Shown: piece after piece, positions 16,125-35,063 of the stretch | Layout: every line of letters starts with the position of its first letter | How positions within the stretch are numbered: the stretch's first letter is position 1 | Source of the DNA: a virus | IMG/VR virus record: IMGVR_UViG_3300006854_000037 | Location: 1 to 35,468 of that record | Strand: one strand, 5' to 3' | DNA length: 35,468 nt | The notes under the pieces: generated by a model | What the model saw: the letters and a program-made list of their open reading frames with translations, nothing else | What the model was told of the DNA's origin: nothing | The model's database searches: none | Translations under genes and position numbers: made by a program

Positions 16125-16125
16125 T

Positions 16126-18432: not shown

Positions 18433-18433
18433 C

Positions 18434-19456
18434 ATGGCGCTGGACTTCTTGACCTCGGGCACGCCCGCGGCTAGCAACACCAACCAGGCGTCCTCGACGA
18501 CGCTGCCGGACTGGTACAACGCCTACATCCAGGGGCTGGCCGCCAAGGGGGCGGATGTGGCCAGCACGCCTTACCAGGCGTACCCGGGCCAGCGTCTGGC
18601 GGACTTCAACGACGACCAGATGAAGTCCTTCCAGCAGGTTCGGGACATGCAGGGCAGCTGGCAACCAACGCTCGACAAGGCTACCGGCGCGTTGACGCAA
18701 GCACAGACGGGCTTGGGCGCCGTGCCGGGCTTCGGTACCGCGGCCACCTCCGCGGTGAGCGGCCCCGCGCAGGGCTGGACGGATGCGGGCACGGCGGCTA
18801 AGTACATGAGCCCGTACACGCAGAGCGTGGTGGATGAGATCGGGCGGCTGGGCAACCGGAACCTGATGGAGAACATCATTCCCAACGTGGAGAGCAACTT
18901 CGTGGGCTCGGGTCAATTCGGCTCCTCCCGCAACGCGGACATCCTGGGGCGCGCGGTGCGCAGCGCGCAGGACGACATCACCGGGCAGCAGTCCACCGCG
19001 CTACAGGCGGGCTATACGGGTGCAATGGGCCAGTTCAACGCCGACGCCGCCCGGGCGCAGCAGCAAGAGCAGCTTCAGGCGACCACCAACCTGGGGGCCG
19101 GCAACCTCGCCGTGACTGGAGCCAACGCGGGTACTAACGTGGGGGGCGCGTTGGGGCAGGTCGCCAATCAGCAACAGCAACAGCAGGTGGCAGACGCCAC
19201 GGCGCTGGGCTCAATCGGCGGGCAGCAACAACAGTTGGAGCAGACAGGGTTCAACACGTCATACCAGGACTTCCTGAACCAACAGGGCTGGGACTGGTCT
19301 CAGCTGGGCAAGCTGCAGGGGCTCGTCTCTGGGGCGCAGCTGCCGACGAGCACCAGCGCTTCGAGCAGCACCGCGCAGACCCCCGCGGGCACCTCCCCCC
19401 TTCAGTGGCTCAGCGCACTCGGCGGGCTTTACAATTCGTTCAACTCCGGGGGTTGA
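18434..19456 (+). CDS. Internal virion / ejection-type protein, 340 aa
   Basis: A GGGAG site precedes the ATG at 18434. The N-terminal block (LPDWYNAYIQGLAAKGADVA, then YQAYPGQRLADFNDDQ and FQQVRDMQGSWQPTLDKAT) is a pattern I recognise from podovirus virion proteins encoded after tail-hub genes. The central part (VESNFVGSGQFGSSRNADIL) leads into a Gln/Ala-rich helical region with a run of six Gln (about 19171-19188). It has no catalytic motif. It is probably one of the proteins that leave the head with the DNA and build a channel, as P22 gp7, gp20 and gp16 do. The specific equivalence is not claimed. Confidence 0.65.
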   Translation: MALDFLTSGTPAASNTNQASSTTLPDWYNAYIQGLAAKGADVASTPYQAYPGQRLADFNDDQMKSFQQVRDMQGSWQPTLDKATGALTQAQTGLGAVPGFGTAATSAVSGPAQGWTDAGTAAKYMSPYTQSVVDEIGRLGNRNLMENIIPNVESNFVGSGQFGSSRNADILGRAVRSAQDDITGQQSTALQAGYTGAMGQFNADAARAQQQEQLQATTNLGAGNLAVTGANAGTNVGGALGQVANQQQQQQVADATALGSIGGQQQQLEQTGFNTSYQDFLNQQGWDWSQLGKLQGLVSGAQLPTSTSASSSTAQTPAGTSPLQWLSALGGLYNSFNSGG

Positions 19457-19459
19457 TTC

Positions 19460-21046
19460 ATGGCGGACCAGAGCGACGGTGGCGGTGCGCTGAGCTTGTT
19501 CAGCGGGCCGGCGCTGCCCGGCACGGACATGATCGAGCAGATGGCGCAGCGGCCCATGCTGCCGGAAAACCAGAAGTGGCTCCGGTTCACGGAGGGCATG
19601 CTGAAGCCGGGGCAGAGCTACGGCGGTGCGTTGAGCAGCGCCATCGGCGGGTACGCGGGCTCGCAGGAGAAAGAGGCGGAGCTTCAGTCCAAGTACATCC
19701 CGCTGATTGCGCAGGCGTTGCTTCAGCGGCAGATGCAGTCGCTTCAGATTCAACAGAGCCAGACCAAGCTGATGGGCGAGTGGGACAGCACGCTCACCAA
19801 CGCCGCCACCAACCTCCTCGCGCAGCAGGGGCCGATCACCCACCAGGACCTCATCGGCGCTATCAGCGCCCCCGTGCAGCAGGGCCTGGTGCCGCCGCAG
19901 ATGGCTCTACGATGGTTACAGAACGCCCCGGGTGACCCCGCGGCGTTGCGCCCCTACCTGACGCAGAAGATGGCGGGGGCGCAGAATCCGGAGGCGAAGT
20001 TCAAGAGCCTGACCCCGCAGATCGAATACAAGGACACCGGCTCGGGCATCCAGCCCGTGAACGTCAACGCCATGAGCGGCCCCACGCCGCTCGGCCCCGT
20101 GAACGCGCCTCAGGTGGGCAAGACACTCTCCCCCGCGGAAGCGGTGAAGATCGAGGAGACGCCCCACGGCAAGATGGTCGTGAGCTACGTCACAGGTAAG
20201 TCCGCCCCTGTGGGTACGCCGGACGCCGCCGCCATTATCCGGGAAACCCAAGGGCTGCTCGCCGCGGGGCCGGGCGGGGCGGCTCAGCCCCCGGTAGGCG
20301 GCGCCCCCACGCGCTCCCTGGAGTTGAACCCTGCTATGGAAAAGGCCAATGTGGCCAGCGCGGAGGACTTTGCGAAGGAGCAAGCCGCGCTCAACTCCCG
20401 GGTGGACGCGTTGCAGGACGTTCAGATGCGGCTGGGCAAGCTGCGGGAGTTGCAGACGCAATTCCGCTCCGGCGCTACGTCCGAGGTGCGCGCCACCGCT
20501 GCGGCCTACGCTAAGGACATCGCCTCCCTCTTCGGCATGCCGAAGATGGCGCAGGGCCTGGCGGACGGCATTGCGCAGGGCAAGCTCGAGGCGCTTCAGG
20601 AGTTCCAGAAACTCGCCGTTCAAGGGGCGATGGAGAACCTCAAGAGCGCCATGGCGAGCAGCACGGGTACGCAGGCGGGGCGGCTCACCCAGGCCGAATT
20701 CGGCATCTTCCAGAAGAACAGTCCCAGCATCGCGATGGATCCCAACGCGATGGAGGCGATGTTCAACTTTGCAACGGAGCAGTACAAGCGTGCGCTACAG
20801 ATGCAAAAGTTCTATGCCGACCAACGGTCTCAGGGCGTACCCCTTCATCAGATTCCTGTCAACTGGAATCAGCAGCTCGCTGCGGAGGGCCAAGCACCTA
20901 AGAACGTCACGGGTGCCGCTCAGGGCGCGCGGCAGCCCTTCAGGGCACCGGCTCCCGCTGCCCCGTCGGCTCAACGGGCCACCAGTCTTAGTGGGAAGCC
21001 GATCAAGCTAAACCCCCAGACCGGGATGTGGGAGTATGAGGAGTGA
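19460..21046 (+). CDS. Internal virion / ejection-type protein, 528 aa
   Basis: The ATG at 19460 follows the previous stop by 3 bases. The first 90 residues contain Gly-rich MADQSDGGGALSLFSGPALP and LKPGQSYGGALSSAIGGYAG. A Gln-rich helical part follows (LIAQALLQRQMQSLQIQQSQ). The centre is Pro/Gly-rich. Residues 290-440 are mostly helical, with ALNSRVDALQDVQMRLGKLR likely coiled coil. The C-terminus ends in SGKPIKLNPQTGMWEYEE. No enzyme motif is seen. Its size, order and texture fit a DNA-ejection protein. Confidence 0.65.
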   Translation: MADQSDGGGALSLFSGPALPGTDMIEQMAQRPMLPENQKWLRFTEGMLKPGQSYGGALSSAIGGYAGSQEKEAELQSKYIPLIAQALLQRQMQSLQIQQSQTKLMGEWDSTLTNAATNLLAQQGPITHQDLIGAISAPVQQGLVPPQMALRWLQNAPGDPAALRPYLTQKMAGAQNPEAKFKSLTPQIEYKDTGSGIQPVNVNAMSGPTPLGPVNAPQVGKTLSPAEAVKIEETPHGKMVVSYVTGKSAPVGTPDAAAIIRETQGLLAAGPGGAAQPPVGGAPTRSLELNPAMEKANVASAEDFAKEQAALNSRVDALQDVQMRLGKLRELQTQFRSGATSEVRATAAAYAKDIASLFGMPKMAQGLADGIAQGKLEALQEFQKLAVQGAMENLKSAMASSTGTQAGRLTQAEFGIFQKNSPSIAMDPNAMEAMFNFATEQYKRALQMQKFYADQRSQGVPLHQIPVNWNQQLAAEGQAPKNVTGAAQGARQPFRAPAPAAPSAQRATSLSGKPIKLNPQTGMWEYEE

Positions 21047-21050
21047 CGCC

Positions 21051-22910
21051 ATGGGCAACGCTGTAACGCTGTCGGACCTCCCACTCGAGCTGCGCGCGCA
21101 GTACAGCGCGAACAGCGCACCCATGACCGCATTCCGCGCTCAGCTGGAAAAGGATCACGGGCTGGCGCCTGGCGCGCTCGGCACTGCGAAGCTCGACGTG
21201 CAGCCGGGTACGGACCTGACCGGAATGTATCAGGCTATCGCCGCGGACATGGGCAAGGAGGCGCAGGCTAAGCGCGCTAAGCTGGAAGCTCAGCAAGCCG
21301 CAGACGCTAAGCTCTACAACCCCACCACGGGCGACTACGAAATTCACGGGCTGAAGATCCCCGCCTGGGCAGGTAACGCGCTCGCGGGAGCGGGTAAGTC
21401 CGTGGCGGACACGGGGCGTGGGTTGGCACAGCTGTTCGGCGCGGACAACCAGGCCGCCATCGATGAGGCAGCGCACCTGGACGAGCCGTTGATGCGCACG
21501 GGGGCGGGCCTGACGGGATACCTCGGCGGTACGCTGGGCACGATGGCCATCCCCGGCAGCGCGGTCACTAAGGCGCTCCCCATCACAACTACGGGGGTCA
21601 AGGGTGTCCCCGCGGCAGCCATCGTAGGCGCTGGCCTAGGCGCTACTCAACCGGTCGAGACGGGCGCCTCCCGCACGGGGCAGGCGATACTCGGCGCCGT
21701 GGCGGGGGGCGCAGGCCAGGCGGTTGGTGCCGGGCTTAGCGCCGCGGCGCGCCCCGCGGCTCAGGCCGCTGACGCGGTGACGCAGGCGGCTGTGCGCCGA
21801 GCCTCCGCGCTGGGCATCCCGCTCACCGCAGCTCAGATCAGTGACAACCCCGCGCTGAAGGGCGTGACGGACCTACTCGCCACGTTGCCCTTGAGTGGCG
21901 CGGACAAGGCCTCCGGAGCTCAGCAGAAAGCGTTCAACCGGGCGCTGGCCGCGTCAGTGGGTGCGGACACGGACGAGCCGCTCCTCGCGGTACGGGCGGG
22001 GCGCAAGAACCTGAGCGACGCCTACGACGCCGTCAAGTCCCGCAACGCGCTCCAGCTTGAGCCGTGGCACGTGGACGCGCTCACGGACGAGATCAACAAC
22101 TACGCCGCCAACGGGCTTAGCACCACTAAGCCCACTACGGTGAAGAACCTAAAGTCGCTCCGTGATCAGATCGTCACCCAGGCCGACGAGGAGGGCAAGC
22201 TCACCGGGGAGCAGTACAAGACGATGCGTTCTCGTATAGGGGAGTATGAGCAGCGGCAGAACGCCGCGGGCGGCGACCCCGACTACCAGAAGGCGCTCGG
22301 CAGCTTCAAGGCCACGCTGGACCAGGCGTTCAAGAGTGGGCTGAGCCCTGAGGACGCCGCGCTGCTGGCACAGACTGACCGCCAGTGGGCCAACCTCAAG
22401 ACGTTGGAGAAGATTGCGCCCGTCACCCCGGGTGGAGACTTCGACTTCAACGCGCTCGCGCGTCAGGTGACCTCTAAGCAGGTCGGGAACACTGCGCAGC
22501 GCAACGCATTTCTGTACTCACAAGGCGACCAGACACTCCCCGACCTGGCCCGCATCGGTCAGATGCTGGGGCGCACCAACCCCACGGCGAACCCGGGCCT
22601 GGTGGACCTGGCAAAGCGCGCGGGGCGCGGGGCGGTGCGTCTTGGGGCGGCGCCTACGGTGGGGCTGGGGTACTACTCACTGCAAAACCACGACGACCCC
22701 TCGGCGGCTGCGCTGAGGGCTGCGATGCTCACGGGGTTGACGGTGGGCGGGGGTCGGGCGTTGAGCGCCGGGCTGCGCAGCCGGGCGTTTGCTGAAGGGA
22801 TGCCACGTCTCGGTGCTCTCGGGCAAGCCGCACAAGCCTACCCACAGGCGGGGGTGGGTGCGTTAAATACGGCACTCCGAGGGCTCGGAGACGGCTCGGA
22901 GGGCCAGTAA
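21051..22910 (+). CDS. Internal virion / ejection-type protein with hydrophobic Gly-rich segment, 619 aa
   Basis: The ATG at 21051 is preferred over the one at 21036 because GAGGAG lies 7-8 bases before it; that ribosome site is inside the end of the preceding gene. Residues 100-245 are hydrophobic and Gly/Ala-rich (IPAWAGNALAGAGKSVADTG, GLTGYLGGTLGTMAIPGS, ILGAVAGGAGQAVGAGLSAA), suggesting segments able to enter a membrane. Residues 245-470 are helical and charged. A second glycine-rich hydrophobic stretch follows near residue 560. The amphipathic layout fits an ejection protein that lines a channel across the host envelope. Confidence 0.65.
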   Translation: MGNAVTLSDLPLELRAQYSANSAPMTAFRAQLEKDHGLAPGALGTAKLDVQPGTDLTGMYQAIAADMGKEAQAKRAKLEAQQAADAKLYNPTTGDYEIHGLKIPAWAGNALAGAGKSVADTGRGLAQLFGADNQAAIDEAAHLDEPLMRTGAGLTGYLGGTLGTMAIPGSAVTKALPITTTGVKGVPAAAIVGAGLGATQPVETGASRTGQAILGAVAGGAGQAVGAGLSAAARPAAQAADAVTQAAVRRASALGIPLTAAQISDNPALKGVTDLLATLPLSGADKASGAQQKAFNRALAASVGADTDEPLLAVRAGRKNLSDAYDAVKSRNALQLEPWHVDALTDEINNYAANGLSTTKPTTVKNLKSLRDQIVTQADEEGKLTGEQYKTMRSRIGEYEQRQNAAGGDPDYQKALGSFKATLDQAFKSGLSPEDAALLAQTDRQWANLKTLEKIAPVTPGGDFDFNALARQVTSKQVGNTAQRNAFLYSQGDQTLPDLARIGQMLGRTNPTANPGLVDLAKRAGRGAVRLGAAPTVGLGYYSLQNHDDPSAAALRAAMLTGLTVGGGRALSAGLRSRAFAEGMPRLGALGQAAQAYPQAGVGALNTALRGLGDGSEGQ

Positions 22911-23915
22911 GTGGGCGCGTTGACCGCGTTGTTTGAGGCGTTGGCGGCTAAGTCAGCTGAGGGGGCCGGCGGTAAGGCAGTGGACGCGGTGGGCAACACG
23001 TTCATGCGCGGCGCCGAGCTGCCGGGGACGTTCCAGCGGGGTAAGGAGTTTGCGAAGACCCCCGAGGGCCTAGCCGCGCAGTTCGACTGGTCCGTCCCGC
23101 AGCGTCGCTCCGACGGGGTCACCATCTACAAGGACCCCAATAGCGACGCCAACGTCTACCTGTTTGCGCAGAACTACGCCGAGCTGCTCAAGAAGGACGC
23201 TGAGCTGCGCAAGCGTCTGGGGTTGCAGGAGGGCACTACTTACAGCCCCTTCATTGACCGCGGCGACCTCCCGCAGGACGCTACGTATTACACAATCGGG
23301 GCGGGGCGCCTGGCCCAGGGCTCCGGTGCGGGCACGCGCGCCTACCCGGCTATCTACGGGGACATCCTGAACAACCCCAACGCGGTGAACATTAAGGACG
23401 GCCTGACGGGCGTCAACGAGTACCGCAACAACTACAACCTCGCCTCGGCTATCATGCGCCGCCCTGACGCCGGGGAGCGCCTACTCACCAGCCCGGAACA
23501 GTTCAGGAACGTGCTCGCGGACCCCGCCGCGCTGCGCACCGCCGCGCCGGAGACCCAGGTGGGCGCACTTCAGACCGAGGGCGCGCTGCAGACCCTTCAG
23601 CGTCTACTCGCTGCTACGACGGACAAGGCCACGCCGGAGGCGTTGCGCGCCCGGCTGGGCAACCTCACGTTCAGCAGCGACATGAGCCCCGCGGACCTGA
23701 ACGCGGCCTATGCGGCGGTGAAGGCGAGTAACAGCGCCGCGCTGAAGTCCACCGGCCCGGGCGCGCTGCGCAAGCTCGGCATTACGAGCGACGCGCTACA
23801 GGGCCGGGACGTGAACCCCGCGGCGTTCAAGGGGCTCGAGTTCAGCCACGGGGGCGCCCTGCGTAAGACCTCACCCGCTGCGTCAGTCCGCCGCGGTGGC
23901 GTGCAGCGGCGCTAG
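22911..23915 (+). CDS. Virion protein with polyvalent-protein-like segment, 334 aa
   Basis: The GTG at 22911 directly follows the previous stop. Residues 105-190 contain GTTYSPFIDRGDLPQDATYY, then GAGRLAQGSGAGTRAYPAIY and GLTGVNEYRNNYNLASAIMR. From memory, this resembles a segment in large polyvalent phage proteins and in internal virion proteins. The C-terminus carries FSHGGAL (23841 onward) and RRGGV, the recurring motif. The last 33 bases overlap the convergent deacetylase-fold gene on the other strand. The function is not assigned; a virion or injected protein is likely from context. Confidence 0.6.
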   Translation: MGALTALFEALAAKSAEGAGGKAVDAVGNTFMRGAELPGTFQRGKEFAKTPEGLAAQFDWSVPQRRSDGVTIYKDPNSDANVYLFAQNYAELLKKDAELRKRLGLQEGTTYSPFIDRGDLPQDATYYTIGAGRLAQGSGAGTRAYPAIYGDILNNPNAVNIKDGLTGVNEYRNNYNLASAIMRRPDAGERLLTSPEQFRNVLADPAALRTAAPETQVGALQTEGALQTLQRLLAATTDKATPEALRARLGNLTFSSDMSPADLNAAYAAVKASNSAALKSTGPGALRKLGITSDALQGRDVNPAAFKGLEFSHGGALRKTSPAASVRRGGVQRR

Positions 23916-24770
23916 CTCGGGGCTGGCGTAGACCACCTGCGCGGTCTTCATCGTGCGCATGTGCAGGTGAACGGTCCGCGCGCCGTTGTACCCGCCCGCG
24001 AAGTTGAAGACGCAGGGGAGGTTGTTGTTCGCGCAGTGTTGGAAAACCAGCATGTCTCGCGCCTCCCAGCCGTAGTCGTCCAGATAGCCCGCGCCGTAGG
24101 GGTCCTCCTTGTGCGCGTCGGCGCCGGCCTGGTACAGCACCAGGTCCCACTGACGCTCACGCAGCGCGCCCTTAATGCTCATCTCCCACACCACGGGGCT
24201 GATGCTGTGCCGACCCTCCCCGCGGTGCGTCAGGTTGACGATGCCCGCGAGCCCCATGCGTTCGATGATGTCGTCGGTGCCGTTGCCGTAGTGGGCGTCG
24301 CCGTCGATGACCAGCACGTTCTTAAGCGCGCCGGGGTTGTGTACGCGGTAGTCTTGCACCGCGAGCAGGAGCCCGTTGAAGGTGCAATAGCCCGCGGACT
24401 CCGCCCATCCTGCGTGATGGAACCCGCTCACGGGGGCGCAGATGATGTCTCGGCCCTGGGCCTTCACCGCCTGCCGTACCGCCTCCACCATGACGCCGCA
24501 GGAGAGCATCGCGTGCTCCACCGGGGTGCCCGGCTGGAAGCCCTCCAGCTTAGCAAAGCCGTCCAGACGGCGCCCCTTCAGCACGCCGTCTGCGTGGTGC
24601 GGAGAGTGCGCGAGGTACAGCTGAGGGTGCGCGAGCGCGTGGGCGTCAATGATCTTGCCCTTGTGGTGCGGCAGAAAGACGTTCATTACCGCGCTAGACT
24701 TAGACAAGCTGATGCGTTTGTCCTGCGCGTAGGACGCCAGGTGAGGAATCCAGACGACGTGGAGGCTCAT
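23883..24770 (-). CDS. Histone-deacetylase-fold Zn amidohydrolase, 295 aa
   Basis: AAGGAG lies 5 bases before the ATG at 24770, and the ATG overlaps the previous stop (ATGA). The arginase/deacetylase active site appears complete: the His-His dyad in SGFHHAGWAES (H118, H119), GYCTFNGLLLAV, DGDAHYGNGT (D156, D158, H160), YQAGADAHKEDPYG (D218) and AGGYN (Y261). Zn ligands are expected to be D158, H160 and D218, with Y261 completing the oxyanion site. The family removes acetyl or related acyl groups from lysine, polyamines or other amines. The substrate here is unknown. Last gene of a putative DNA-hypermodification operon that also encodes two GNATs. Candidates are an acetylated DNA base or nucleotide, acetyl-polyamine, or an acetylated protein. 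Confidence 0.85.
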   Translation of the reverse strand: MSLHVVWIPHLASYAQDKRISLSKSSAVMNVFLPHHKGKIIDAHALAHPQLYLAHSPHHADGVLKGRRLDGFAKLEGFQPGTPVEHAMLSCGVMVEAVRQAVKAQGRDIICAPVSGFHHAGWAESAGYCTFNGLLLAVQDYRVHNPGALKNVLVIDGDAHYGNGTDDIIERMGLAGIVNLTHRGEGRHSISPVVWEMSIKGALRERQWDLVLYQAGADAHKEDPYGAGYLDDYGWEARDMLVFQHCANNNLPCVFNFAGGYNGARTVHLHMRTMKTAQVVYASPELAPLHATAAD

Positions 24771-25183
24771 CTGAGCTCCTTCACGACGAACTCAATGGGA
24801 GCGTAACGTTCCGCAATGAGCTGGAGATACTGCTGCGCCCACTTCAGCTCATTGAGCGTGCTGTAGAAGCAGACAGCGCGGATGACGGCAGCTTCTTGGC
24901 TCGTGAGTTCCAGGTCATTGGCCTGCAGGAAGCGTTCCACGTCGTTGGCGTGATCCACCGGGGTGCCGTTCTGCGAAGCTTTCCAGCGTTCTTCCATCAA
25001 CTTGTCGAGGAAGTGTCCCGCCTTCTCGACGTCCTGCAACCCGTTCTTCTTGGCGTGGCGGCAGATGTACTTGGTAATCTGACCCTCGAGGTACCCCAGG
25101 CCCACGTCTTCCACAAAGTCCCAGTGCTGATAGGCAGAGCGGTAGTGCGCCCCCCCGACCTGACGTTCATTTGCTGAGCTCAT
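24767..25183 (-). CDS. DUF3310 family protein, 138 aa
   Basis: The start at ATG 25183 is supported by AGAGGGA just upstream and by alignment: MSSANERQVGGAHYRS is the usual DUF3310 beginning. The body WDFVEDVGLGYLEGQITKYI followed by CRHAKKNGLQDVEKAGHFLD is diagnostic. DUF3310 proteins are common in phage nucleotide-metabolism regions and are sometimes labelled nucleotide kinase, without firm evidence. The gene overlaps the HD nucleotidase by 17 bases upstream and the deacetylase-fold gene by 4 bases downstream. A role in handling nucleotides for the modified DNA is inference from position. Confidence 0.85.
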   Translation of the reverse strand: MSSANERQVGGAHYRSAYQHWDFVEDVGLGYLEGQITKYICRHAKKNGLQDVEKAGHFLDKLMEERWKASQNGTPVDHANDVERFLQANDLELTSQEAAVIRAVCFYSTLNELKWAQQYLQLIAERYAPIEFVVKELR

Positions 25184-25748
25184 CGAATTCCCTCTTGAGG
25201 TGGTTGAACAAAGTGAGCGCTCGGGTGCGCAGCCCACCGACGTCGGTCGCCTTAATGAGACGCTCGATGTACTCCAGGTAAGTGCGCGCGCAGCCGTTGT
25301 ACTCCCGGCTGAGGACCATTCGGTTGCCGAGGAGCGCCTCTCGCAGGCAGTAGAAGCCTCCTTCCAGCGAGTCCGCTAGCTTCAGGGTCGCAGCTTCCTC
25401 CTCCGTCAGTGGGTGCGCGCCGAGGTCGAAGTGATGCGCCACGAGGTGCGCACGCTCCGCCTCGTCGAGCATGGAGTTGAGCCGCAACGCGAGCTTGGTA
25501 GGAGCGGGAACGTCTCCCGTTCTGCGCTCCCCGGCGTCGTGCGCCAACGCCTGGATCAGCAACGCCGCAGTGGGGGCGCCTCCGGTCAGGATGTAGCAGA
25601 ACCACGCTACGTTGAAGGAGTGCTGACCCACGTCCTGCGTGCGCAGCATGACCTCCGTGTGGTAGCGCTGGGTCTGGCCGAACTGCGTAGCGGCGACCGC
25701 CTGCTTTATCAGGCGTTCCATCGCTACGGCGGTGTTGACGATGCTCAC
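25167..25748 (-). CDS. HD-domain 5'-deoxynucleotidase-like phosphohydrolase (YfbR-like), 193 aa
   Basis: The GTG at 25748 overlaps the stop of the TS-family gene (GTGA); an upstream extension of the frame lies inside that gene. The HD motif set is present: GQHSFNVAWF (first His), ALAHDAGERRTGDVPAPTK (HD pair with the GDVP element typical of YfbR-type dNMP phosphatases) and KLADSLEGGFYC (last Asp). The family dephosphorylates 5'-dNMPs. Next to a TS-family enzyme it could remove dTMP or other monophosphates so that 5-hmdUMP is favoured. That role is inference. Confidence 0.8.
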   Translation of the reverse strand: MSIVNTAVAMERLIKQAVAATQFGQTQRYHTEVMLRTQDVGQHSFNVAWFCYILTGGAPTAALLIQALAHDAGERRTGDVPAPTKLALRLNSMLDEAERAHLVAHHFDLGAHPLTEEEAATLKLADSLEGGFYCLREALLGNRMVLSREYNGCARTYLEYIERLIKATDVGGLRTRALTLFNHLKREFDELSK

Positions 25749-26791
25749 GCTGTACCCCCTACGCCGCCCGCAACCTTCAGGGCACGCTTCTCGGCGATGC
25801 GCAAGAGCCAGTCGTGACCGGCACTCAGCCAATCCCAGTTGTGCGCGCCGCGGTTGGACAGGCGCAGGATAGCGTGGCTCAGGTCACCCGCTTTGTACTG
25901 CTTGTACGCCTTGTCCATCTCGTGCGCGATGGCGCAGAACTCAGTGCTGTAAAGATGTTCCTCTCCGTCCAACACGCGGAGCACTTCCTCGTAGAACTTG
26001 GAGTCCGCAGCTCCCAGCGGGGTGGGACGCACCTTGCGTGCGGAGGTGAGTCGGTAACGATCATCGAGGAGTAGCTCAGAAGTGTTGAACAGCTTCACCA
26101 CGTCTTCGCGCTCGATGTAGGCGTGGAAGTTGTTCGCCATCTGGTAGTACGCGCCCCCCTTCACGCCCACCAGGTCCGCCACGTATTCCTGCAACACGCT
26201 GAAGTGCACAGCGTTCGCGCCGTAGGCGCCCCAGATGATGTCGTTACTGCGGTTGCACACCGTCATGTCCAACGCGCCCGCGTTGACGCGGAAGTACACG
26301 TGGGTGTTGCAGGGGACATCCTTCCCGCCCGCGATGGCGCGCTTCAGGTCGCCTTCGTAGCCCTCGACTTCATCCATGGCGTCCCACATGCTCAGCACGC
26401 AGCGCCGACTGGCGGGGTTGCGCTTGAGTTCATTGATGATTTCCCGCAACTGGTCGTAGCCGAAGTGCTCACGCCAACGGTAGCCGTAGGCGCCGTTGAG
26501 CGTCTCGGTGTCGTCGCTGTACAGCATCATCGGGGCATAGGTGTGGGGGTAGGCCACGTCATTGCGCCCGGCGAGCATCCACAGGCTCTCGAGCACGTGG
26601 AAAAACGGGTTTGCGTTGCGTTGTGCGCTGAACAGCACGCGCTCCTGCGGGCGCAGGTACTGGGTGGTCACGGGTACGGGGGCGACGAGCACCGCCCCGT
26701 TGCGGGAGTCCTCCCGTAGGCCGTGGCGCTTCAGATACTCGACCCCTGTGTAGAGGGCGTCGTTGACATTGGTGGCGTGGATGACGTGCAT
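25745..26791 (-). CDS. Thymidylate-synthase-family enzyme, likely dUMP hydroxymethylase, 348 aa
   Basis: The ATG overlaps the previous stop (TAATG) with GGAG upstream. TS landmarks are visible: ESLWMLAG (E68), AYGYRWREHF, NPASRRCVLSMWD (paired Arg), DVPCNTHVYF (nucleophile C161), CNRSNDIIWGAYGANAVHFS (N193) and NNFHAYIE. The retained Asn at the position that is Asp in dCMP hydroxymethylases argues for a uracil substrate. The sequence departs from cellular ThyA in several blocks. Sitting in one operon with 5-hmdU kinase-type genes, it most likely makes 5-hydroxymethyl-dUMP rather than dTMP. Sequence alone cannot exclude ordinary thymidylate synthase. Confidence 0.8.
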   Translation of the reverse strand: MHVIHATNVNDALYTGVEYLKRHGLREDSRNGAVLVAPVPVTTQYLRPQERVLFSAQRNANPFFHVLESLWMLAGRNDVAYPHTYAPMMLYSDDTETLNGAYGYRWREHFGYDQLREIINELKRNPASRRCVLSMWDAMDEVEGYEGDLKRAIAGGKDVPCNTHVYFRVNAGALDMTVCNRSNDIIWGAYGANAVHFSVLQEYVADLVGVKGGAYYQMANNFHAYIEREDVVKLFNTSELLLDDRYRLTSARKVRPTPLGAADSKFYEEVLRVLDGEEHLYSTEFCAIAHEMDKAYKQYKAGDLSHAILRLSNRGAHNWDWLSAGHDWLLRIAEKRALKVAGGVGGTA

Positions 26792-27660
26792 TAATGCTCC
26801 GGTGGGGGTGAGTAGCGTGAACGGGGTTTACCTTGACCTAGACGTACGCGTTCGTATTTGTCAAACTCACACAGGCAATTCTGCAGGTTTTGCCCATCGA
26901 GAAACGGCATACGGGTACGGCGGACTTCAGGCTCAATGATTGTATACAAGGCGTTGAATTCCCGAAACCAAGAATTGTGCTGCGTCCAGGATGACGTAGG
27001 CGCACGCCCGCGCACCCGGTTGAGCCCGCGTAGGCTGCCCGGCCCCGGAGTAGCCCAGGTGTCCAGGTCGGCGGCCATTTGCAGCGGAAAGGTGAAGTGC
27101 TTAGCGTCCGCCACCACCTGCCCCGCCATGAAATCGCCCATGTCTCGGTACAGCTTGAGCCGGGCGTGAAAGGCGGCTAGGGTGTCGCCCTTGCGAGGGC
27201 GGATATGCTCACGGTCCTTCCACATCGGCGTCAGGACGTACTCCGCCAAGTAAGCAGCCTTGGTGCCGCCGATTACGGCGTCCGCTCTCACCATGTACGC
27301 TCCCGTGAAGACTTTGTCCCCCGCAGCGCGGCGGGCGTCTAGCGCATCAACAAACCACTTGGGGTGCCACTTACCAGACACGCCAGGGGGAGCGCCTATC
27401 TCTTCCAGCGACGGCCACCAGTTGATCAATCGCGCCACTACGCACGCAAACCACAGGTCCGGCGCGTCGCGGTTGGGCTTCAGCCAGTTGTCGTGAATGA
27501 GCACCGTCTGCTTGTCTAGCTCGCGGTAGACGTTACAAAAGCGGTACGCCTTCAGTATGGGGTCGTCAGTCCACGGCCAAGGCATGCCGCGCTTGCGCGT
27601 CTCGTATACGGCGTGCCGCGCCTGCATGAAGCGGAACAGGGCGCGTTCCCCGTCTGTCAT
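26791..27660 (-). CDS. 5-hmdU DNA kinase helical-domain protein (hypermodification enzyme), 289 aa
   Basis: The start at ATG 27660 follows GGAGG and overlaps the previous stop (ATGA). Conserved blocks are ALFRFMQARHAVYETR, PWTDDPILKAYRFCNVYREL (residues 30-48), MGDFMAGQVVADAK, ATPGPGSLRGLNRVRGR and LQNCLCEFDKYERVRLGQGK (near 259-278). I recognise these as the helical domain that Pfam calls HMUDK_hel, associated with 5-hmdU DNA kinases and base hypermodification. It is related to the DNA-glycosylase-like alpha-glutamyl/putrescinyl-thymine pyrophosphorylase group. Here it is a separate gene next to the P-loop kinase. It probably recognises DNA or takes part in the transfer step. Family recall is from memory. 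Confidence 0.7.
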   Translation of the reverse strand: MTDGERALFRFMQARHAVYETRKRGMPWPWTDDPILKAYRFCNVYRELDKQTVLIHDNWLKPNRDAPDLWFACVVARLINWWPSLEEIGAPPGVSGKWHPKWFVDALDARRAAGDKVFTGAYMVRADAVIGGTKAAYLAEYVLTPMWKDREHIRPRKGDTLAAFHARLKLYRDMGDFMAGQVVADAKHFTFPLQMAADLDTWATPGPGSLRGLNRVRGRAPTSSWTQHNSWFREFNALYTIIEPEVRRTRMPFLDGQNLQNCLCEFDKYERVRLGQGKPRSRYSPPPEH

Positions 27661-27842
27661 AGCGCATCCTCCCACGCCCACCCAAAGCACCAACGCATCA
27701 TGAAGCGATGCGCCCACGCGGGCTTGCGCGTCATTGCGATCTTGAAGTTGCCGCCGATGCAGTAGTAGCCTATGTAAGCCGGCATCACTGCGAACGTGTA
27801 GTAGTTAAGAGGGAGCGCATCAATGCGGTCATCCTTGTTCAC
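27657..27842 (-). CDS. Small hypothetical protein, 61 aa
   Basis: The GTG start at 27842 overlaps the kinase stop (GTGA) with AAGGAG upstream, and the stop overlaps the next ATG. The sequence is rich in aromatic residues (YYTFAVMPAYIGYYCIGGNF, then RFMMRWCFGWAWEDAL). It is not clearly a membrane span and has no metal motif beyond two separated Cys. Its placement between the kinase and the helical-domain gene suggests an accessory subunit. I do not recognise a family. Confidence 0.6.
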   Translation of the reverse strand: MNKDDRIDALPLNYYTFAVMPAYIGYYCIGGNFKIAMTRKPAWAHRFMMRWCFGWAWEDAL

Positions 27843-28435
27843 GCCGGCTCCTTACTCAACCGCACCCCGAACAGCTTCAGCACGTCGGTCACCGCGTGGG
27901 TGTGGCGGATGTCCACAATGCGCACCTGGCTGCCCAGCCGACGCATCTGGTCCTTGGTCCGCGCCACGTTCTCGAACTTCACGGTGGTGTTGTGTGGGTT
28001 CAAGGGCTCGAAGTTTCCTTTAGCCGCCCGGCGTTGCTTGATGCGCTCGAGGCACAGCTCAAGGGGCGTGTCCAGGAAGGCGAAGACGGCGTTGGGTGCG
28101 TAGTGGCTCATCAACTGACCCACAGAGCCGTAGCTGGAGCTCACCAACGCGCCTTCTAGCAGAACGTGTTCGTAGTGCTTGGCGTAGTCCGCGATGCGGT
28201 CAAGTATGAGTGAGTACGGCTGGATGCCGTCCGCTCCGCCGCACTGCGTGTGATAAGAGCCTATGATGGCTAGACGTTGCTTGGGCGCTACTTGCAACAA
28301 ATACCCTTCAACACGCCCTTTCTTGTCCGGATTGATGGGCTGCCACTTGTCTTTGTGGTCGTACAAACCCAGGATGCGTTGCACGATCGTGCTCTTCCCG
28401 CTCCCGTGAGTTCCGCGAATGCTGACGATGGTCAT
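27839..28435 (-). CDS. P-loop kinase, 5-hmdU DNA kinase type, 198 aa
   Basis: The ATG at 28435 overlaps the previous stop (ATGA) with AAGGCG upstream. Walker A is GTHGSGKST (residues 8-16). LLEGALVSSSYGSVGQL follows a hydrophobic strand (Walker B-like region), and RIKQRRAAKGN provides the Arg-rich lid. The chain is about the size of deoxynucleoside-kinase-fold enzymes, and the pattern matches the P-loop proteins shown to phosphorylate 5-hydroxymethyl-dU within DNA in phages such as M6 and ViI. It would create the phosphorylated intermediate to which an amino acid is attached. A free-nucleotide kinase is the alternative, but the context favours DNA. Confidence 0.75.
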   Translation of the reverse strand: MTIVSIRGTHGSGKSTIVQRILGLYDHKDKWQPINPDKKGRVEGYLLQVAPKQRLAIIGSYHTQCGGADGIQPYSLILDRIADYAKHYEHVLLEGALVSSSYGSVGQLMSHYAPNAVFAFLDTPLELCLERIKQRRAAKGNFEPLNPHNTTVKFENVARTKDQMRRLGSQVRIVDIRHTHAVTDVLKLFGVRLSKEPA

Positions 28436-28845
28436 TCTTCGCCTTTCATGTACGCACCCCACTTAGCGTTGAACTCAGCGGCGGGGAGCCGGGCCTTGTC
28501 CTTCAGGAAGCGCCGGAACTTCCTGAGCTCGGACTTGTCATTGTCCGTCAGAGTAGACTTAGCCAGCAGGGTCTCCAGCTTAGCTGCGTTGGGCTGCATC
28601 GTGGGCGGGCGCTTCATCAACTCCCTGGTCAACGGCCCAAATGCAGCTCGGTTGCGTGCTGCGCAGAACGGGCAGCTGCCGTCCGCGTTCATGTTACCCG
28701 GCGCGGCGCCGCAACCGGCGCAGTAACCGGGGCGGGAGCTGTCGTAGTGTCCCATGGCGTTCATCTCCAGTTGAAGTAGCGTTGAGAACTTAGGCGTGCC
28801 GGCTACGTCTCCGGCGAGCCAGGCGGACATACCGCGGCGGGTCAC
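28432..28845 (-). CDS. Small zinc-ribbon protein, 137 aa
   Basis: The GTG at 28845 overlaps the flavoenzyme stop (GTGA) with GGAGGGG upstream; an ATG at residue 6 is an alternative. CAGC and CPFC, separated by about 14 residues (in a PGYCAGCGAAPGNMNADG context), form a probable four-Cys zinc ribbon. The C-terminal half is helical and basic (KSELRKFRRFLKDKARLP). A DNA- or protein-binding accessory of the modification enzymes is plausible. No family is recognised. Confidence 0.6.
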   Translation of the reverse strand: MTRRGMSAWLAGDVAGTPKFSTLLQLEMNAMGHYDSSRPGYCAGCGAAPGNMNADGSCPFCAARNRAAFGPLTRELMKRPPTMQPNAAKLETLLAKSTLTDNDKSELRKFRRFLKDKARLPAAEFNAKWGAYMKGEE

Positions 28846-29666
28846 AATCGCCCCTCCTCGACAAAACGCAGCGCCTGCGCCGCGGCGAGCAGCGTGCCGT
28901 TCTTGGCCCCGCCGGTGGATACGAACGTGCGCGGGCTGATGCGCTTGAAGAACCCCGCCTTGTGTTCCTCCACGTAGGGGCGGATGCCCTCCGTTACCTT
29001 GACGCCTTGTAGCTGGCGCAACTCCGATAGCTTCGTGATGCGCTGGACGGTGGCCGCAATGCGATTGTCTCGCTCGGCTTCCCAGGTCTTCCTGATCAGC
29101 GCGGTGCCGTCACCACCCCATGCTTCGGTCTTGTTGAGTTGAAACAGCACAGATTGACGGTATGGCGCGTAAACGCTGATTTTGGCCTGTACCCCCGTGG
29201 CCTTGAAACGCATTGATGCGCCGTACAAACCCCTGATTGGAGGCATTTCAACCAGCCGCCCACACCATACCCCAGCGGCTACCAGGACGGTCCCGCGGAG
29301 CGTGCGTCCGTCGTTCAGAGCCACAGCGCCGTCCTTGACGCTCGTAACGTCCGCCGTCACATCCGCCTTCACGCGCACGCGGTCAGGGTCCACGCGCTGA
29401 GCCTTGAAGGGGGCGCCCAGGGGGCCGGTGAACACCACGTCCTGCAGCCCGTACAGCTCGTCTAGCAGCCGCAGCCCGTGGTCCACGTCGGTCTTGTTGA
29501 GGCTCGTGAGCCAGCTGGGCGCGAGCACGCAGCCTGACGCCTTACTCGCCGCCATGGGCTCGTTGTTGCTCACCACGGTCACGTTGTGCCCGCGGGAGCG
29601 GCAGAGCGTGGCGGCGATAGAACCGAACAGACCATTGCCTACGATGATCACGTCCTTAGGTGTCAT
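28842..29666 (-). CDS. FAD-dependent DAO-type oxidoreductase / DNA-base lyase candidate, 274 aa
   Basis: The ATG at 29666 follows GGAGAAG and overlaps the previous stop (ATGA); the longer upstream frame is in other genes. The N-terminus DVIIVGNGLFGSIAATLCRS has the GxGxxG dinucleotide motif (G10, G12, G15), followed by SKASGCVLAPSWL. VLVAAGVWCGRLVEMP is the usual second FAD motif, and TGGAKNGTLLAAAQAL closes the fold. The arrangement is that of the DAO/glycine-oxidase (ThiO) family, but at 274 aa it is shorter than the usual 370 or so. In thymidine hypermodification, a flavin-dependent lyase cleaves a glycyl-type adduct to leave an aminomethyl group. This is the natural candidate for that step. 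Confidence 0.75.
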   Translation of the reverse strand: MTPKDVIIVGNGLFGSIAATLCRSRGHNVTVVSNNEPMAASKASGCVLAPSWLTSLNKTDVDHGLRLLDELYGLQDVVFTGPLGAPFKAQRVDPDRVRVKADVTADVTSVKDGAVALNDGRTLRGTVLVAAGVWCGRLVEMPPIRGLYGASMRFKATGVQAKISVYAPYRQSVLFQLNKTEAWGGDGTALIRKTWEAERDNRIAATVQRITKLSELRQLQGVKVTEGIRPYVEEHKAGFFKRISPRTFVSTGGAKNGTLLAAAQALRFVEEGRL

Positions 29667-29791
29667 TTCTTCTCCATGCAAATGCAACCGTCGCGGGTGC
29701 CGACTTTGTCCGTGACGAGATAAGCGGCTCCCATGAGCAGCGCCCCTAGCATGACGCCGCATACGAGTGCGAAGGCTTTCTTGAGGCTCAT
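29663..29791 (-). CDS. Small single-span membrane protein, 42 aa
   Basis: The ATG at 29791 overlaps the previous stop (ATGA) with GGGAGAAG upstream. The protein has a basic start (MSLKK), a hydrophobic helix of about 20 residues (AFALVCGVMLGALLMGAAYL) and a short tail with two Cys. It could be a signal-anchored inner-membrane peptide. Its presence between modification genes is unexplained. It is translated in the same coupled series. Confidence 0.6.
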   Translation of the reverse strand: MSLKKAFALVCGVMLGALLMGAAYLVTDKVGTRDGCICMEKK

Positions 29792-30006
29792 GGCTTCTCC
29801 CACCCGATGATGGTCTTGCACCCTTGGCAGATGACGGCGCAGTAGGGGAGCCGCAACCAGCGGCGCCACGTAGATTGAACCTGCCCCCGCATGAACAAGT
29901 CTCGCGGGGTGAGCTCGCGTCCACCGAATGGGTCACACTGATCACAACTCAGCCCTGTGGGAGGGGCTTTGTCTTTCAGCAACGTATATTCAATTGGCAT
30001 GGTCAT
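29788..30006 (-). CDS. Small zinc-ribbon-like protein, 72 aa
   Basis: The start is probably ATG 30006 (or ATG 30000), both inside the end of the upstream GNAT gene and without a clear ribosome site, so translation may depend on re-initiation. The protein has CDQC near the N-terminus and CQGCKTIIGW near the C-terminus, a likely four-Cys zinc ribbon with the two halves separated by about 45 residues, and a basic middle (RGQVQSTWRRWLRLPY). The function is unknown. The gene ends in the ATGA overlap with the 42-aa gene. Confidence 0.55.
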   Translation of the reverse strand: MTMPIEYTLLKDKAPPTGLSCDQCDPFGGRELTPRDLFMRGQVQSTWRRWLRLPYCAVICQGCKTIIGWEKP

Positions 30007-30562
30007 AGCGGAGGCCGCGTCGAATAAGGGAGTCAATGCTAGCCTGAGTAAGGGGTTTCGGGCTAGGGGCCTGGGGCGGAACTGCACCAGGAGGGTAGAT
30101 GTGCTCATGACCGGGTAGCGGCGAGTAGACAAACACCTCCCCTGTGGGCACTTGCCCCCAGCACCTATGCCCTAGCGCCTTGTGCAACCCCAACCCGGCG
30201 CTGGAGCCTGCTAGGCTCTTCACGTGGCGGCAGCCAGCGCGCACCGCTTCCTTTTCCATCTCGGCGTACAGCCGGTAAGCGTAGCCTTTGCGGCGGAACT
30301 CTGGTAGTGTGTAAGCTGCGTACCAATTTACGCACGGCAGCCAGACGTTGGTTTTCTTCTTCCCGAGCTTCGAAGCGTGAATGCTCAACGGTACGTCGTG
30401 GCTGTCAACGTAAGCCCAGACACGCGCGCCCCAGAAGACGTAGAGCCCCAGCTCTTGCAGGACGGGGTGACGCTCCGCGCCCGCCTCACGCATCCTCTTC
30501 ACTTGCAAGTTGACGAGCCGTTGGTCCTCCGGCACGCCCTTAGTGAGTTCGATGATCTTCAT
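29990..30562 (-). CDS. GNAT acetyltransferase, candidate base-amine acetyltransferase, 190 aa
   Basis: The ATG at 30562 overlaps the HNH gene stop (ATGA) with AAAGG upstream. The GNAT acetyl-CoA loop is RRKGYA (residues 90-95) after the strand VWLPCVNWYAAYTLPEFR, followed by the helix YRLYAEMEKEAVRAGC. A Pro-rich linker (about 160-175, GAVPPQAPSPKPLTQ) leads to a short basic helix. In the PaMx11-type pathway an acetyltransferase caps the aminomethyl group of modified dU. This gene, inside the same cassette as kinase, transferase and flavoenzyme, is the best candidate here. Resemblance to the Mu Mom branch of GNAT-like DNA modifiers is possible but not shown. Confidence 0.75.
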   Translation of the reverse strand: MKIIELTKGVPEDQRLVNLQVKRMREAGAERHPVLQELGLYVFWGARVWAYVDSHDVPLSIHASKLGKKKTNVWLPCVNWYAAYTLPEFRRKGYAYRLYAEMEKEAVRAGCRHVKSLAGSSAGLGLHKALGHRCWGQVPTGEVFVYSPLPGHEHIYPPGAVPPQAPSPKPLTQASIDSLIRRGLRYDHAN

Positions 30563-31083
30563 GCTTGGGCCTTTCTGCGGGCCCAAGCGGCGCGCATCTT
30601 AGCTTTGGTTTCTTCTGTGTGAAGCTTGCCAAACCTAGAGTGCTCAGGTCCGTGCTTACCCTTCATAGGGTTGGCTTCATTCATCCGTTTGCGCGCTGCG
30701 GCTCTGGTAGACTCAGGAATTACGTTTCCTTTGTTTGCAGCGCCTATCTTCTTGCGTGTTTCAGGGCTTAGCGGCCTGCCCGTCAACGCCTTGCTGATTG
30801 CCGAGCCCCGTTTGCGCATCTGCTCCGGTGTGATTACTTGGTTGATGTGTCTGCCTTTGGAGATAGCGTCTTGCTGGTTGTCCCTTGGCGTACCTAGAAA
30901 GTGGTGCGCATCCAAGATACAGGCAGCGTTGTCGCAGGTATGGCAGACGTACATTCCTTTAGTGGGCATCCCGTGCCTGCGCTCATACACGCGACGGTAA
31001 GCTTCGTCGGCCGGATGTTCTAGACATCCATTGCGCCAGGTAGCTTCGGCTTCGTAGTCAGACACGGACTTGTACGCCGGCAT
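30559..31083 (-). CDS. HNH homing endonuclease with NUMOD3 motifs, 174 aa
   Basis: The ATG at 31083 lies inside the last 26 bases of the transferase gene. Residues 38-66 (HGMPTKGMYVCHTCDNAACI, then HHFLGT) form an HNH nuclease core with Cys/His metal ligands. GRPLSPETRKKIGAANKG (102-119) and GKLHTEETKAKM (152-163) are NUMOD3 DNA-binding repeats typical of free-standing phage homing endonucleases. The gene, and the 3' part of the transferase gene next to it, are richer in A/T than the surroundings, a sign of recent entry. It could also cut competing phage DNA that lacks the modification, but this is speculation. Confidence 0.85.
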   Translation of the reverse strand: MPAYKSVSDYEAEATWRNGCLEHPADEAYRRVYERRHGMPTKGMYVCHTCDNAACILDAHHFLGTPRDNQQDAISKGRHINQVITPEQMRKRGSAISKALTGRPLSPETRKKIGAANKGNVIPESTRAAARKRMNEANPMKGKHGPEHSRFGKLHTEETKAKMRAAWARRKAQA

Positions 31084-31975
31084 TCAGTAGCCCCGTCTTC
31101 AGTTGTTTGGCCAAGTCTCCCCAGCCTTCTAAGCTATGCAAAACTTCTTTAGTGTCTTTACCAATCGGGTAGTGGCCTCTTCTGTAACTCTTGTACTTAC
31201 ACAGTACGGTTTCCGTTTCGAAAAGATCCGGCTTACGATGCGTCAGTCCTAGGGCCTTGTGATTGCGGAAGTGCTTGATCAGACGAGCGACCGTCGTCTT
31301 GAAATCTTCATCGCGTATCGGGTAGTCCCAAGGAGTGTCCGCGTAAGGAATCTCTCCGCCAGCCACAGGCCAACGCGCGGCGGGCTCGCTTTCGAAAAAC
31401 ACCAAAGCGGCCCCCTTGCGGGGTTCATCGTAGAATTGTAGCTCGCAGTCAGCGAAGTCCACGGGGAACCTCAGCACACGCTCGGTCATGTCAGCGATCT
31501 TGAATCCTATCCACGACCCGAACCCCCGGTGGGTTTTGACCCGGTTCATGATTTGGGTGAATGTGACCTTTTCCAGCTGTCCGTTCGTCGTCATGCCGCG
31601 TACTGCGTCCGTGGGGGTGTTGTAGCGGGATTGCAGCGAAGCCATCGAGCTGACCGCCTGCGCACCGCGGTAGTGTCGGCGCTCCGCCCCGCGGGGCCAG
31701 GGCTGGTGACCCGGCTTGTTCAGCTCGCTCACCGGGGAGTACACCGCCGCTTGCATCATCAGCGACCAGTACGCCTTGTCGGACTTTGCCTCCGCCATCT
31801 TGGCCGCGGCGCCGAGATGATAGTAGCACCAATACGCGAGGCAAAGACGGTGCAATGTCTTCTGGTCGAGCTTGGCTTCGTTTATCGCGATGTACGTGGG
31901 GTCGAGGTCACCCGACTTGAGCAGCTGCGCGCCGAAGGCCTCCACGGTGAGAGGCGGCGTAGGTATAGCGGACAA
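31058..31975 (-). CDS. Amino acid:DNA transferase-like protein (ADDT type), 305 aa
   Basis: The frame is open far upstream, but the best start is TTG 31975, six bases after AAGGAG; the region further upstream is a structured leader. Conserved blocks are GDLDPTYIAINEAKL, RLCLAYWCYYHLGAAAKM, WPRGAERRHYRGAQA (93-107) and GFGSWIGFKIADMTERVL (151-168). I recognise these from phage proteins annotated as amino acid:DNA transferase, related to the glycosylase-like aGPT pyrophosphorylase group. The expected reaction joins an amino acid to phosphorylated 5-hmdU in DNA. Both the rare start codon and the hairpins before it suggest limited or controlled expression. Confidence 0.7.
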   Translation of the reverse strand: MSAIPTPPLTVEAFGAQLLKSGDLDPTYIAINEAKLDQKTLHRLCLAYWCYYHLGAAAKMAEAKSDKAYWSLMMQAAVYSPVSELNKPGHQPWPRGAERRHYRGAQAVSSMASLQSRYNTPTDAVRGMTTNGQLEKVTFTQIMNRVKTHRGFGSWIGFKIADMTERVLRFPVDFADCELQFYDEPRKGAALVFFESEPAARWPVAGGEIPYADTPWDYPIRDEDFKTTVARLIKHFRNHKALGLTHRKPDLFETETVLCKYKSYRRGHYPIGKDTKEVLHSLEGWGDLAKQLKTGLLNAGVQVRV

Positions 31976-32000
31976 GGGTAGCTCCTTGGCTGTGGTGAAT

Positions 32001-32070
32001 TGTTTGAGGAGCCGCCTGCAGCGTTTTCTCGTCGGCAGATCACGGGACTGTGCCCGCGGCTCCTCAAACA
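32001..32070 (-). promoter_or_regulatory. Structured RNA leader with a perfect 15-bp stem
   Basis: TGTTTGAGGAGCCGC at 32001-32015 and its exact reverse complement at 32056-32070 enclose a 40-base loop. The loop can itself form two small stems (GGG/CCC at about 32054 to 32043, and CTGC/GCAG at about 32037 to 32016), giving a three-way junction. The element lies between the basic-linker gene and the transferase gene. It ends 25 bases before the TTG start and 13 bases before its ribosome site. It may be an RNA processing site, an attenuator or a translational control element. Confidence 0.6.
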
Positions 32071-32072
32071 AC

Positions 32073-32088
32073 CCTCCCCGTAGGGAGG
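32073..32088 (-). terminator. GC-rich hairpin with UACG tetraloop, possible attenuator
   Basis: On the minus strand CCTCCC and GGGAGG pair around a TACG loop. C(UACG)G is one of the extra-stable RNA tetraloops. It begins 13 bases after the stop at 32101 and is followed by GTTGTTTG, a poor U-tract. It looks like a partial terminator or mRNA 3'-end protector, and lies directly before the 15-bp stem. Confidence 0.45.
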
Positions 32089-32100
32089 TGTTGCGCCGGC

Positions 32101-34539: not shown

Positions 34540-34708
34540 TTGGTCTTTTCCATTCCACGAGGGCGGGGCGCCCTCCAGGGATCATGTAGATGCGGTCAGG
34601 CCACCCGCGTTTCTTCAACCCACAGCACTCGATGCCCAGTTCTAGCTGAGCGCGTTCCGTGCAGGTGTTTTGAATCTGAGCTTCACGCGGAGAGAGCTTC
34701 GTCGCCAT
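34244..34708 (-). CDS. VRR-NUC domain nuclease, 154 aa
   Basis: The ATG at 34708 lies within the end of the GNAT gene, with GGGAAG just upstream. The nuclease core is KRGWPDRIYMIPGGRPALVE followed by WKRP: the Asp of PDR and the E-x-K of VEWK are the PD-(D/E)xK residues. DIVIYRLQRLGYSVAV and SSVEEGLTFL end the usual domain at about residue 91. The frame continues for about 60 further residues that overlap the start of the helicase gene (296 bases in total). The partner helicase follows directly, as in other phages. The tail may be real, or a base error may have removed an earlier stop. Confidence 0.75.
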   Translation of the reverse strand: MATKLSPREAQIQNTCTERAQLELGIECCGLKKRGWPDRIYMIPGGRPALVEWKRPNEDPRANQDIVIYRLQRLGYSVAVCSSVEEGLTFLRACLDAASISEASGEVPSGARGGSVAPVARTREDLDFLRRLQDTQESKDVQGRARRRAASRSR

Positions 34709-35063
34709 ACGCTTCCCGCTCTTCCGGCTGCCACAGGTACCAGCCCCACTCCAACGCGGCGTAGGCGGGGCGCCACCCCAAGCGCTCATACCACTGCTCC
34801 AGCGCACCTTGGCGCATCCCTGCGTCATGAGCGTGAGGGCGGCACAGTACAGCACGGCGCAGTCTCCGAGCCTCCTCCTGCGCCATTTTGAGTAGGGCTG
34901 TGGCGTACCCTTGACCCCGGGCGCTGCGGTGCGTCCAGACCTCATCTAACACCAACGCGCCAGCGTGTTGGGGCTCATCCTTGTGCGCCGAGCGCAGGAG
35001 CACGCTAGAGGTCAGGTAGCTAAGGCTACGGCCGTGCACGCAGAAACGGCGGTAATACCTCAC
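34683..35063 (-). CDS. GNAT-family acetyltransferase, 126 aa
   Basis: The GTG at 35063 overlaps the exonuclease stop (GTGA). The acetyl-CoA loop is RGQGYA (residues 49-54) after LVLDEVWTHRSA and before TALLKMAQEEARRL. The C-terminus YERLGWRPAYAALEWGWYLW is the usual closing strand. It is short but complete. The substrate is unknown. It may act on a protein, a small molecule or the modified base. It lies far from the kinase/transferase genes but in the same leftward series. Confidence 0.75.
   Translation of the reverse strand: MRYYRRFCVHGRSLSYLTSSVLLRSAHKDEPQHAGALVLDEVWTHRSARGQGYATALLKMAQEEARRLRRAVLCRPHAHDAGMRQGALEQWYERLGWRPAYAALEWGWYLWQPEEREAYGDEALSA

Follow-up and report, generated by a model that had tools for sequence, protein, structure and literature searches.

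Among the closest described counterparts of the locus analysed here is the operon of phage PaMx11 (gp46-gp53), of which M6 and Sonora carry variants in content and order. None of these three phages encodes a histone deacetylase (HDAC), and the systematic HDAC survey of Graf et al. 2024 does not mention phages or viruses (PMC11532494). The literature, with Lee 2021 and Wen 2024 covered through citations and general knowledge, gave nothing relevant that connects deacetylases with phages carrying diaminopurine or hypermodified DNA. The earlier note on this DNA had known of no thymidine-hypermodification pathway with a deacetylase, and none was found in the literature or in deposited relatives. 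Likewise, the arrangement described below was found neither in papers nor in deposited phages.

The window, which is the whole 35,468-nucleotide stretch of the viral record IMGVR_UViG_3300006854_000037, shares with PaMx11 the genes for aGPT2, flavin lyase, kinase, aGPT1, ThyA, HD and DUF3310 proteins in nearly the same order (Table 1). It differs in carrying an HDAC gene and, next to it, a partner gene (cl20-like) that our profiles, at their given sensitivity, did not detect in PaMx11, M6 or Sonora. It also has other acetyltransferases, neither of its two GNAT proteins being detectably related to PaMx11 gp48 by sequence comparison, and a podophage rather than a siphovirus backbone. With a ThyA-like hydroxymethylase, a 5-hmdU kinase, aGPT proteins and a flavin lyase all in place, the window operon is, judged by its gene content, a real thymidine-hypermodification operon, and no PurZ match that would place the phage among Z genomes was obtained in the twin contig region (L061). 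PHROGs (phrog_800) gives the 5-hmdU kinase family the misleading name ‘terminase small subunit’, and so do the deposited PaMx11 and M6 annotations.

Table 1. Features of the window discussed in the text. T, X and Z refer to phages whose HDAC lies in a thymidine-hypermodification, a dCMP-hydroxymethylase-like or a Z-genome context, respectively.
Feature	Position	Strand	Evidence or remark
Major capsid protein-like	6922..7926	+	X and Z phage capsid proteins 70-74% identical; marker of shared podophage lineage
DNA ejection protein-like	18434..19456	+	phrog_4287 2.8e-15
DNA ejection protein-like	21036..22910	+	phrog_26400 1.6e-37
Convergent partner gene (cl20-like), end of late/ejection cassette	22911..23915	+	hhalign match to Z-phage HDAC neighbour
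HDAC-superfamily deacylase, 295 aa	23883..24770	-	PF00850 3.9e-26; AF2 model; VcHdaH structural match
Codons G259-G260-Y261 (transition-state Tyr)	23988..23996	-	Invariant in 83-row alignment
Codons D218...Y225 (gatekeeper position)-G-A-G-Y229	24084..24119	-	Alignment; one-residue insertion common to T/X/Z
Codons D156-G-D158-A-H160...T165, metal-binding loop	24276..24305	-	Alignment; G157 diagnostic of T/X/Z clades
Codons of catalytic His dyad H118-H119	24414..24419	-	Invariant in 83-row alignment
DUF3310 protein, translationally coupled to HDAC	24767..25237	-	PF11753
HD-domain YfbR-like 5'-deoxynucleotidase	25167..25832	-	PF12917 7e-8
Thymidylate-synthase-family (dUMP hydroxymethylase-like)	25745..26791	-	PF00303 1.9e-20; 44-46% to PaMx11 gp51 / M6 gp58
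PF18723 protein (aGPT-Pplase1 / 5-hmdU DNA kinase helical domain)	26791..27717	-	6.4e-45
5-hmdU DNA kinase	27839..28462	-	PF18748 7e-8; 34% to PaMx11 gp49
Flavin-dependent lyase homolog (homologous from residue ~97 onwards)	28842..29945	-	PDB 8z2o 4.6e-40; PaMx11 gp47 37%
GNAT acetyltransferase 1	29990..30586	-	PF00583 2.1e-5; 49-51% to same-place homolog in L065
Second aGPT-type protein (PaMx11 gp46 / M6 gp51 homolog; similar from residue ~105 onwards)	31058..32269	-	1e-54 to 3e-57
GNAT acetyltransferase 2	34683..35063	-	PF13508 1.2e-7

The HDAC gene sits where the earlier note had placed it, at the end of a DNA-modification operon that also encodes acetyltransferases: it is coupled to the last gene of the cassette, and two GNAT-family ORFs lie in the same operon. 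The limits given in that note are exact, while the strand had to be corrected, the gene lying on the minus strand and the plus-strand frame of the interval containing a stop. Translational coupling was also upheld, the HDAC ATG overlapping the TGA of the upstream DUF3310 gene as ATGA (...AAGGAGCTCAGATGAGCC), with AAGGAG shortly 5' of the start. The protein matches PF00850 at 92.5 bits, well above the curated cutoff (27.9), and has no match in a PHROG profile search, and the full set of active-site residues (H118, H119, D156, D158, H160, D218, Y261) is present and invariant at each position of an 83-row alignment, in keeping with the complete, intact enzyme proposed from the letters. A second contig (IMGVR_UViG_3300050505_000030, 48.8 kb), which is 100% identical over positions 15840-34770 of the window and reaches further upstream, bears a sequence-identical HDAC gene. 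This copy, together with more than 90 related viral loci, places the gene far beyond chance, and the predicted product is almost certainly a competent HDAC-type deacylase.

Structure prediction, which the earlier note had proposed as a check, gave a confident HDAC model with the arginase/deacetylase fold (AF2 pLDDT 93.6, pTM 0.92). The nearest solved fold is VcHdaH (VIA Z 33.5, rmsd 2.1 over 269 residues), with Leptospira HDAC11 close by (VIA Z 32.4), and these two enzymes occupy ranks 1-3 and 1-5 in two structure searches; by these nearest folds the model would fall towards cluster 5 in the scheme of Graf et al. 2024. In the alignment, the T, X and Z enzymes differ from most bacterial relatives in having G157 (mostly C, L or F in bacteria), A or S at 219 (P), Tyr at both 225 (L) and 229 (W, F and others), and one inserted residue at 227; G157, Y225 and Y229 are the diagnostic pocket residues. 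The gatekeeper segment reads P224-Y225-G226, the Tyr occurring in every T and X row and in 21 of 22 Z rows, and by its P-x-G motif Y225 aligns with the Glu gatekeeper position of HDAC10.

Scans of IMG/VR confirmed first 41 and then 93 viral HDAC loci, and a scan of bacterial and archaeal genomes gave 92. In a tree built by a quick method with SH-aLRT support only, the window HDAC falls in a seven-member T+X clade (SH-aLRT 95), a Z clade of 26 rows (SH-aLRT 99) is placed elsewhere, and the remaining branches hold bacterial or scattered phage genes. Z-genome clusters are the commonest context, followed by the X context (4 contigs) and the T context (3 contigs); as the HDAC itself was the route by which T and X members were identified, the T/X linkage has no unbiased denominator, and many of the contigs surveyed are fragments. 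The T context comprises the window, L065 (with lyase, GNAT, kinase and both aGPTs) and L063, whose operon has PF18723, ThyA, HD and DUF3310 genes and different genes where lyase and GNAT would be. By eye, glycosyltransferase-, APH-type kinase- and nucleotidyltransferase-like genes take that place (L063:3957-6175), a resemblance that suggests a sugar-type thymidine modification. The X context (L014, L064, L066, L067) has SAM methyltransferase, MazG, ThyA-family and dCMP deaminase genes. Its ThyA-family proteins carry GLPYD, with Asp at the TS Asn177 position, a residue known to mark use of dCMP over dUMP. On sequence grounds the X operons (L014:5058-8019 and its counterparts in L064, L066 and L067) are possible cytosine-modification cassettes of dCMP-hydroxymethylase-like type. 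In more than 40 contigs of the Z context, complete 2-aminoadenine clusters run in the order DpoZ, PurZ, MazZ, DatZ and then HDAC.

Several further observations came from these surveys. The HDAC-bearing Z loci belong to a large uncultured Z-genome lineage (L016, L073, L103 and L110, besides over 40 further loci) with DpoZ at least 73% identical to that of L016, and in L103 the partner gene is present twice. Z-clade HDACs also occur on bacterial chromosomes (L144, L169, L170 and L160; Comamonadaceae and others), three of which have one common conserved gene pair beside the HDAC. Another HDAC clade (L019, L021, L022, L024, L037 and relatives) adjoins large tail-type genes on contigs that by eye look T4-like, a context unrelated to DNA modification. 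BFVD matches list HDAC/ApaH-like proteins of the giant viruses Yasminevirus, Hyperionvirus, Catovirus and CeV, and no full-length phage HDAC.

In T-, X- and Z-clade phages with enough sequence, the HDAC adjoins the partner gene, on the same strand in Z phages and convergently in T and X phages. The 3' ends of the two window genes overlap by 33 nucleotides (23883-23915), and longer convergent overlaps of about 60-110 nucleotides are seen in L063, L065, L014, L064, L066 and L067. The T/X and Z versions of the partner are related by profile-profile comparison (hhalign probability 94.7, E 6e-8), and their profiles barely detect one another. Chance adjacency was rejected, since the partner follows the HDAC also in L131, where it was detected by a profile built without L131, and the 56-kb Z contig L261 lacks the two genes together.

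What these comparisons reveal is an intact, HDAC11/VcHdaH-shaped classical deacylase kept in related podophages across three base-modification routes and beside one partner gene. Because it recurs with the same partner across quite different base chemistries, the HDAC probably serves modified-DNA phages generally, and its persistence while the modification pathway differs favours a common target over a role confined to any single base pathway. The enzyme is probably independent of the specific thymidine chemistry. Our leading explanation, held tentatively and at slightly less than an even chance, is a Zn-dependent deacylase accessory of modified-DNA podophages, with a target common to several base chemistries that is likeliest to be a protein acyl-lysine; that the substrate is a protein is rated just short of even as well. 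The His-dyad/Zn/Tyr centre would hydrolyse an N-acyl amide entering through the HDAC tunnel, whose rim would carry a Tyr gatekeeper in place of the Leu of bacterial relatives. The likeliest substrate would be acyl-lysine on a host protein altered during takeover, or on a virion or replication protein working on modified DNA. The HDAC would probably be made early, with the nucleotide-modification enzymes, and would not be a synthesis step for the modified base. Protein acyl-lysine is the most economical substrate, with N-acylated nucleotides as the main alternative. A wider variant, which we consider unlikely, is that the deacylase and its partner form a module that edits acyl groups on modified nucleotides or DNA, or on proteins handling it, possibly as an acyltransferase/deacylase pair and reversible switch; if true, phages with differing base chemistries would use a reversible acyl switch in infection.

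The concentration of Y225, G157 and Y229 in the modified-DNA clades may alternatively reflect a substrate of base or nucleotide type. One such role, unlikely in our estimate, would be to hydrolyse amines that have become N-acylated on nucleotides or on modified bases (for example 2-aminoadenine, hydroxymethylcytosine or aminomethyluracil); phages whose nucleotide pool fills with unusual amine-bearing species would have this need in common. It is the sole reading that directly links the three chemistries, and the neighbouring genes encode nucleotide enzymes (DatZ, MazZ, dCMP deaminase, HD phosphohydrolase). The Tyr gatekeeper and the Arg found at tunnel-region position 182 in 72% of Z rows also fit, although this position, taken from the alignment, lies in a poorly conserved loop. 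Against such a sanitising role, Z-clade HDACs occur on bacterial chromosomes, consistent with a substrate other than a DNA base, and have no such genes nearby there, and we know of no HDAC that acts on bases.

A role within the thymidine pathway itself, in which a GNAT acetylates the 5-aminomethyl-dU made by the lyase and the HDAC deacetylates the DNA or nucleotide, is quite unlikely. The flavin-lyase homolog should indeed yield 5-aminomethyl-dU (title of Wen et al. 2024, as cited in PMC11946847), GNAT 1 is conserved with L065 between aGPT2 and lyase, and the HDAC is coupled to the operon. However, starting from aGPT, an HDAC lies within 8 kb in only 2 of the 80 aGPT contigs nearest to the window's, many of them incomplete, and in none of the deposited relatives, so that the HDAC is no recurrent component of PaMx11-type operons. 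With PF00583 and PF13508 profiles, GNATs were detected in the window and L065 phages alone among the HDAC phages tested, and in neither L063, the four X phages nor any tested HDAC-bearing Z phage, and the HDAC is present in L063, X and Z phages without the lyase. The rarity near aGPT and the HDAC phages without a detected GNAT indicate no fixed association of the HDAC with either acetyltransferase or flavin lyase. Acetyl-thymidine trimming was accordingly rejected as the main role after the aGPT and GNAT surveys; the earlier note's general link to DNA modification has been strengthened by the T, X and Z contexts, while its acetylated-thymidine form found no support, the gene persisting under other base chemistries.

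That the partner itself is a diverged GNAT-fold acyltransferase whose acyl mark the HDAC removes appears very unlikely. Linkage and co-loss of the two genes speak for such a pair, and for the partner model (pLDDT 81) nearly all of the best 50 VIA rows, like the top Foldseek rows, are GNAT or GNAT-related acyltransferases. Those rows are within noise and serve as a lead only (best Foldseek E 0.3, best VIA Z 7.0), and the partner has no significant match in Pfam, PHROGs, Foldseek or PDB and, by eye, no GNAT CoA motif. In T and X phages it closes the ejection cassette, which suggests a virion protein.

An equally improbable alternative is a host-directed moron, a mere passenger in an insertion hot spot, the link to DNA modification reflecting common phage ancestry only. 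T, X and Z phages do share a podophage-type virion module (portal, capsid, ejection proteins and others), most virion genes being homologous, and HDAC relatives lie among tail genes in T4-like and other phages. Judged by the capsid protein, Caulobacter phage RW is one of the cultured relatives. Among 26 same-capsid contigs, an HDAC was found in one, a Z phage, and the 25 without it led us to reject the idea that the HDAC belongs to the core genes of this podophage family. Twelve same-capsid contigs (44-58 kb) without PurZ, ThyA or aGPT have neither HDAC nor partner; the resulting contrast between modified and unmodified phages (Fisher p about 2e-11) is confounded by ancestry, as the early region of these twelve is wholly different. 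Weighing against a passenger, the pocket residues are clade-specific, and the HDAC was kept in one Z lineage while modification cassettes changed across lineages. In a survey starting from PurZ, it is present in 52 of 54 contigs of that lineage (contigs with sufficient sequence only, near-identical ones counted separately) versus 0 of 18 other PurZ phages, absences that whole-record searches upheld.

ApaH and HDAC10 belong to the HDAC superfamily, a point in favour of the earlier note's option of an acetylpolyamine amidohydrolase supplying free polyamines to balance DNA charge or to form base adducts. One known hypermodified base does carry putrescine (phage phiW-14, named in PMC11550810), but this option is highly improbable, as HDAC10 and bacterial ApaH, which share the catalytic residues, have PEG and PIS gatekeepers (PMC11532494) where the window enzyme has PYG, the nearest folds are VcHdaH and HDAC11 (ApaH is not among the best 50 VIA rows, which by itself excludes nothing), and no putrescine pathway was seen in X or Z operons. 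The PYG gatekeeper favours a substrate that does not resemble acetylpolyamine and may also differ from what the bacterial enzymes act on.

On the preferred reading of a general deacylase accessory, an HDAC-type enzyme joins the accessory kit of modified-DNA phages across three base chemistries, and its recurrence points to a problem common to these phages beyond making the base. A narrow specificity signature accompanies it, namely the Leu to Tyr gatekeeper, G157 and Y229, plus the partner gene. SAHA and TSA inhibit bacterial members of the HDAC family (PMC11532494), and such inhibitors could serve as direct probes of infection.

Compared with known enzymes, the window HDAC has the same catalytic set and a similar domain size as VcHdaH of Vibrio cholerae (PDB 9GKY/9GKV; cluster 5b, PMC11532494), a bacterial de-decanoylase that is 22% identical, has DDELG in the gatekeeper region and is not described in a DNA-modification operon. 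It shares the small domain of Leptospira interrogans HDAC11 (PDB 9GZ5), a 24% identical cellular enzyme with a fatty-acid-bound structure. Among 50,697 deposited phage genomes, matches were confined to Rhodococcus phage E3 and uncultured huge phages, and E3 gp202, a ‘putative histone deacetylase’ of 34.7% identity, is the sole annotated phage HDAC that matches. It lies outside the T, X and Z clades (L033 in the tree), amid hypothetical and HNH genes, in a genome that has no PF18723 or thymidylate synthase match. The HDAC is also unlike the described components of Z-genome systems (PurZ, MazZ, DatZ, DpoZ) and is missing from other Z lineages, whereas one large Z lineage has it, together with the partner gene, directly after the cluster.
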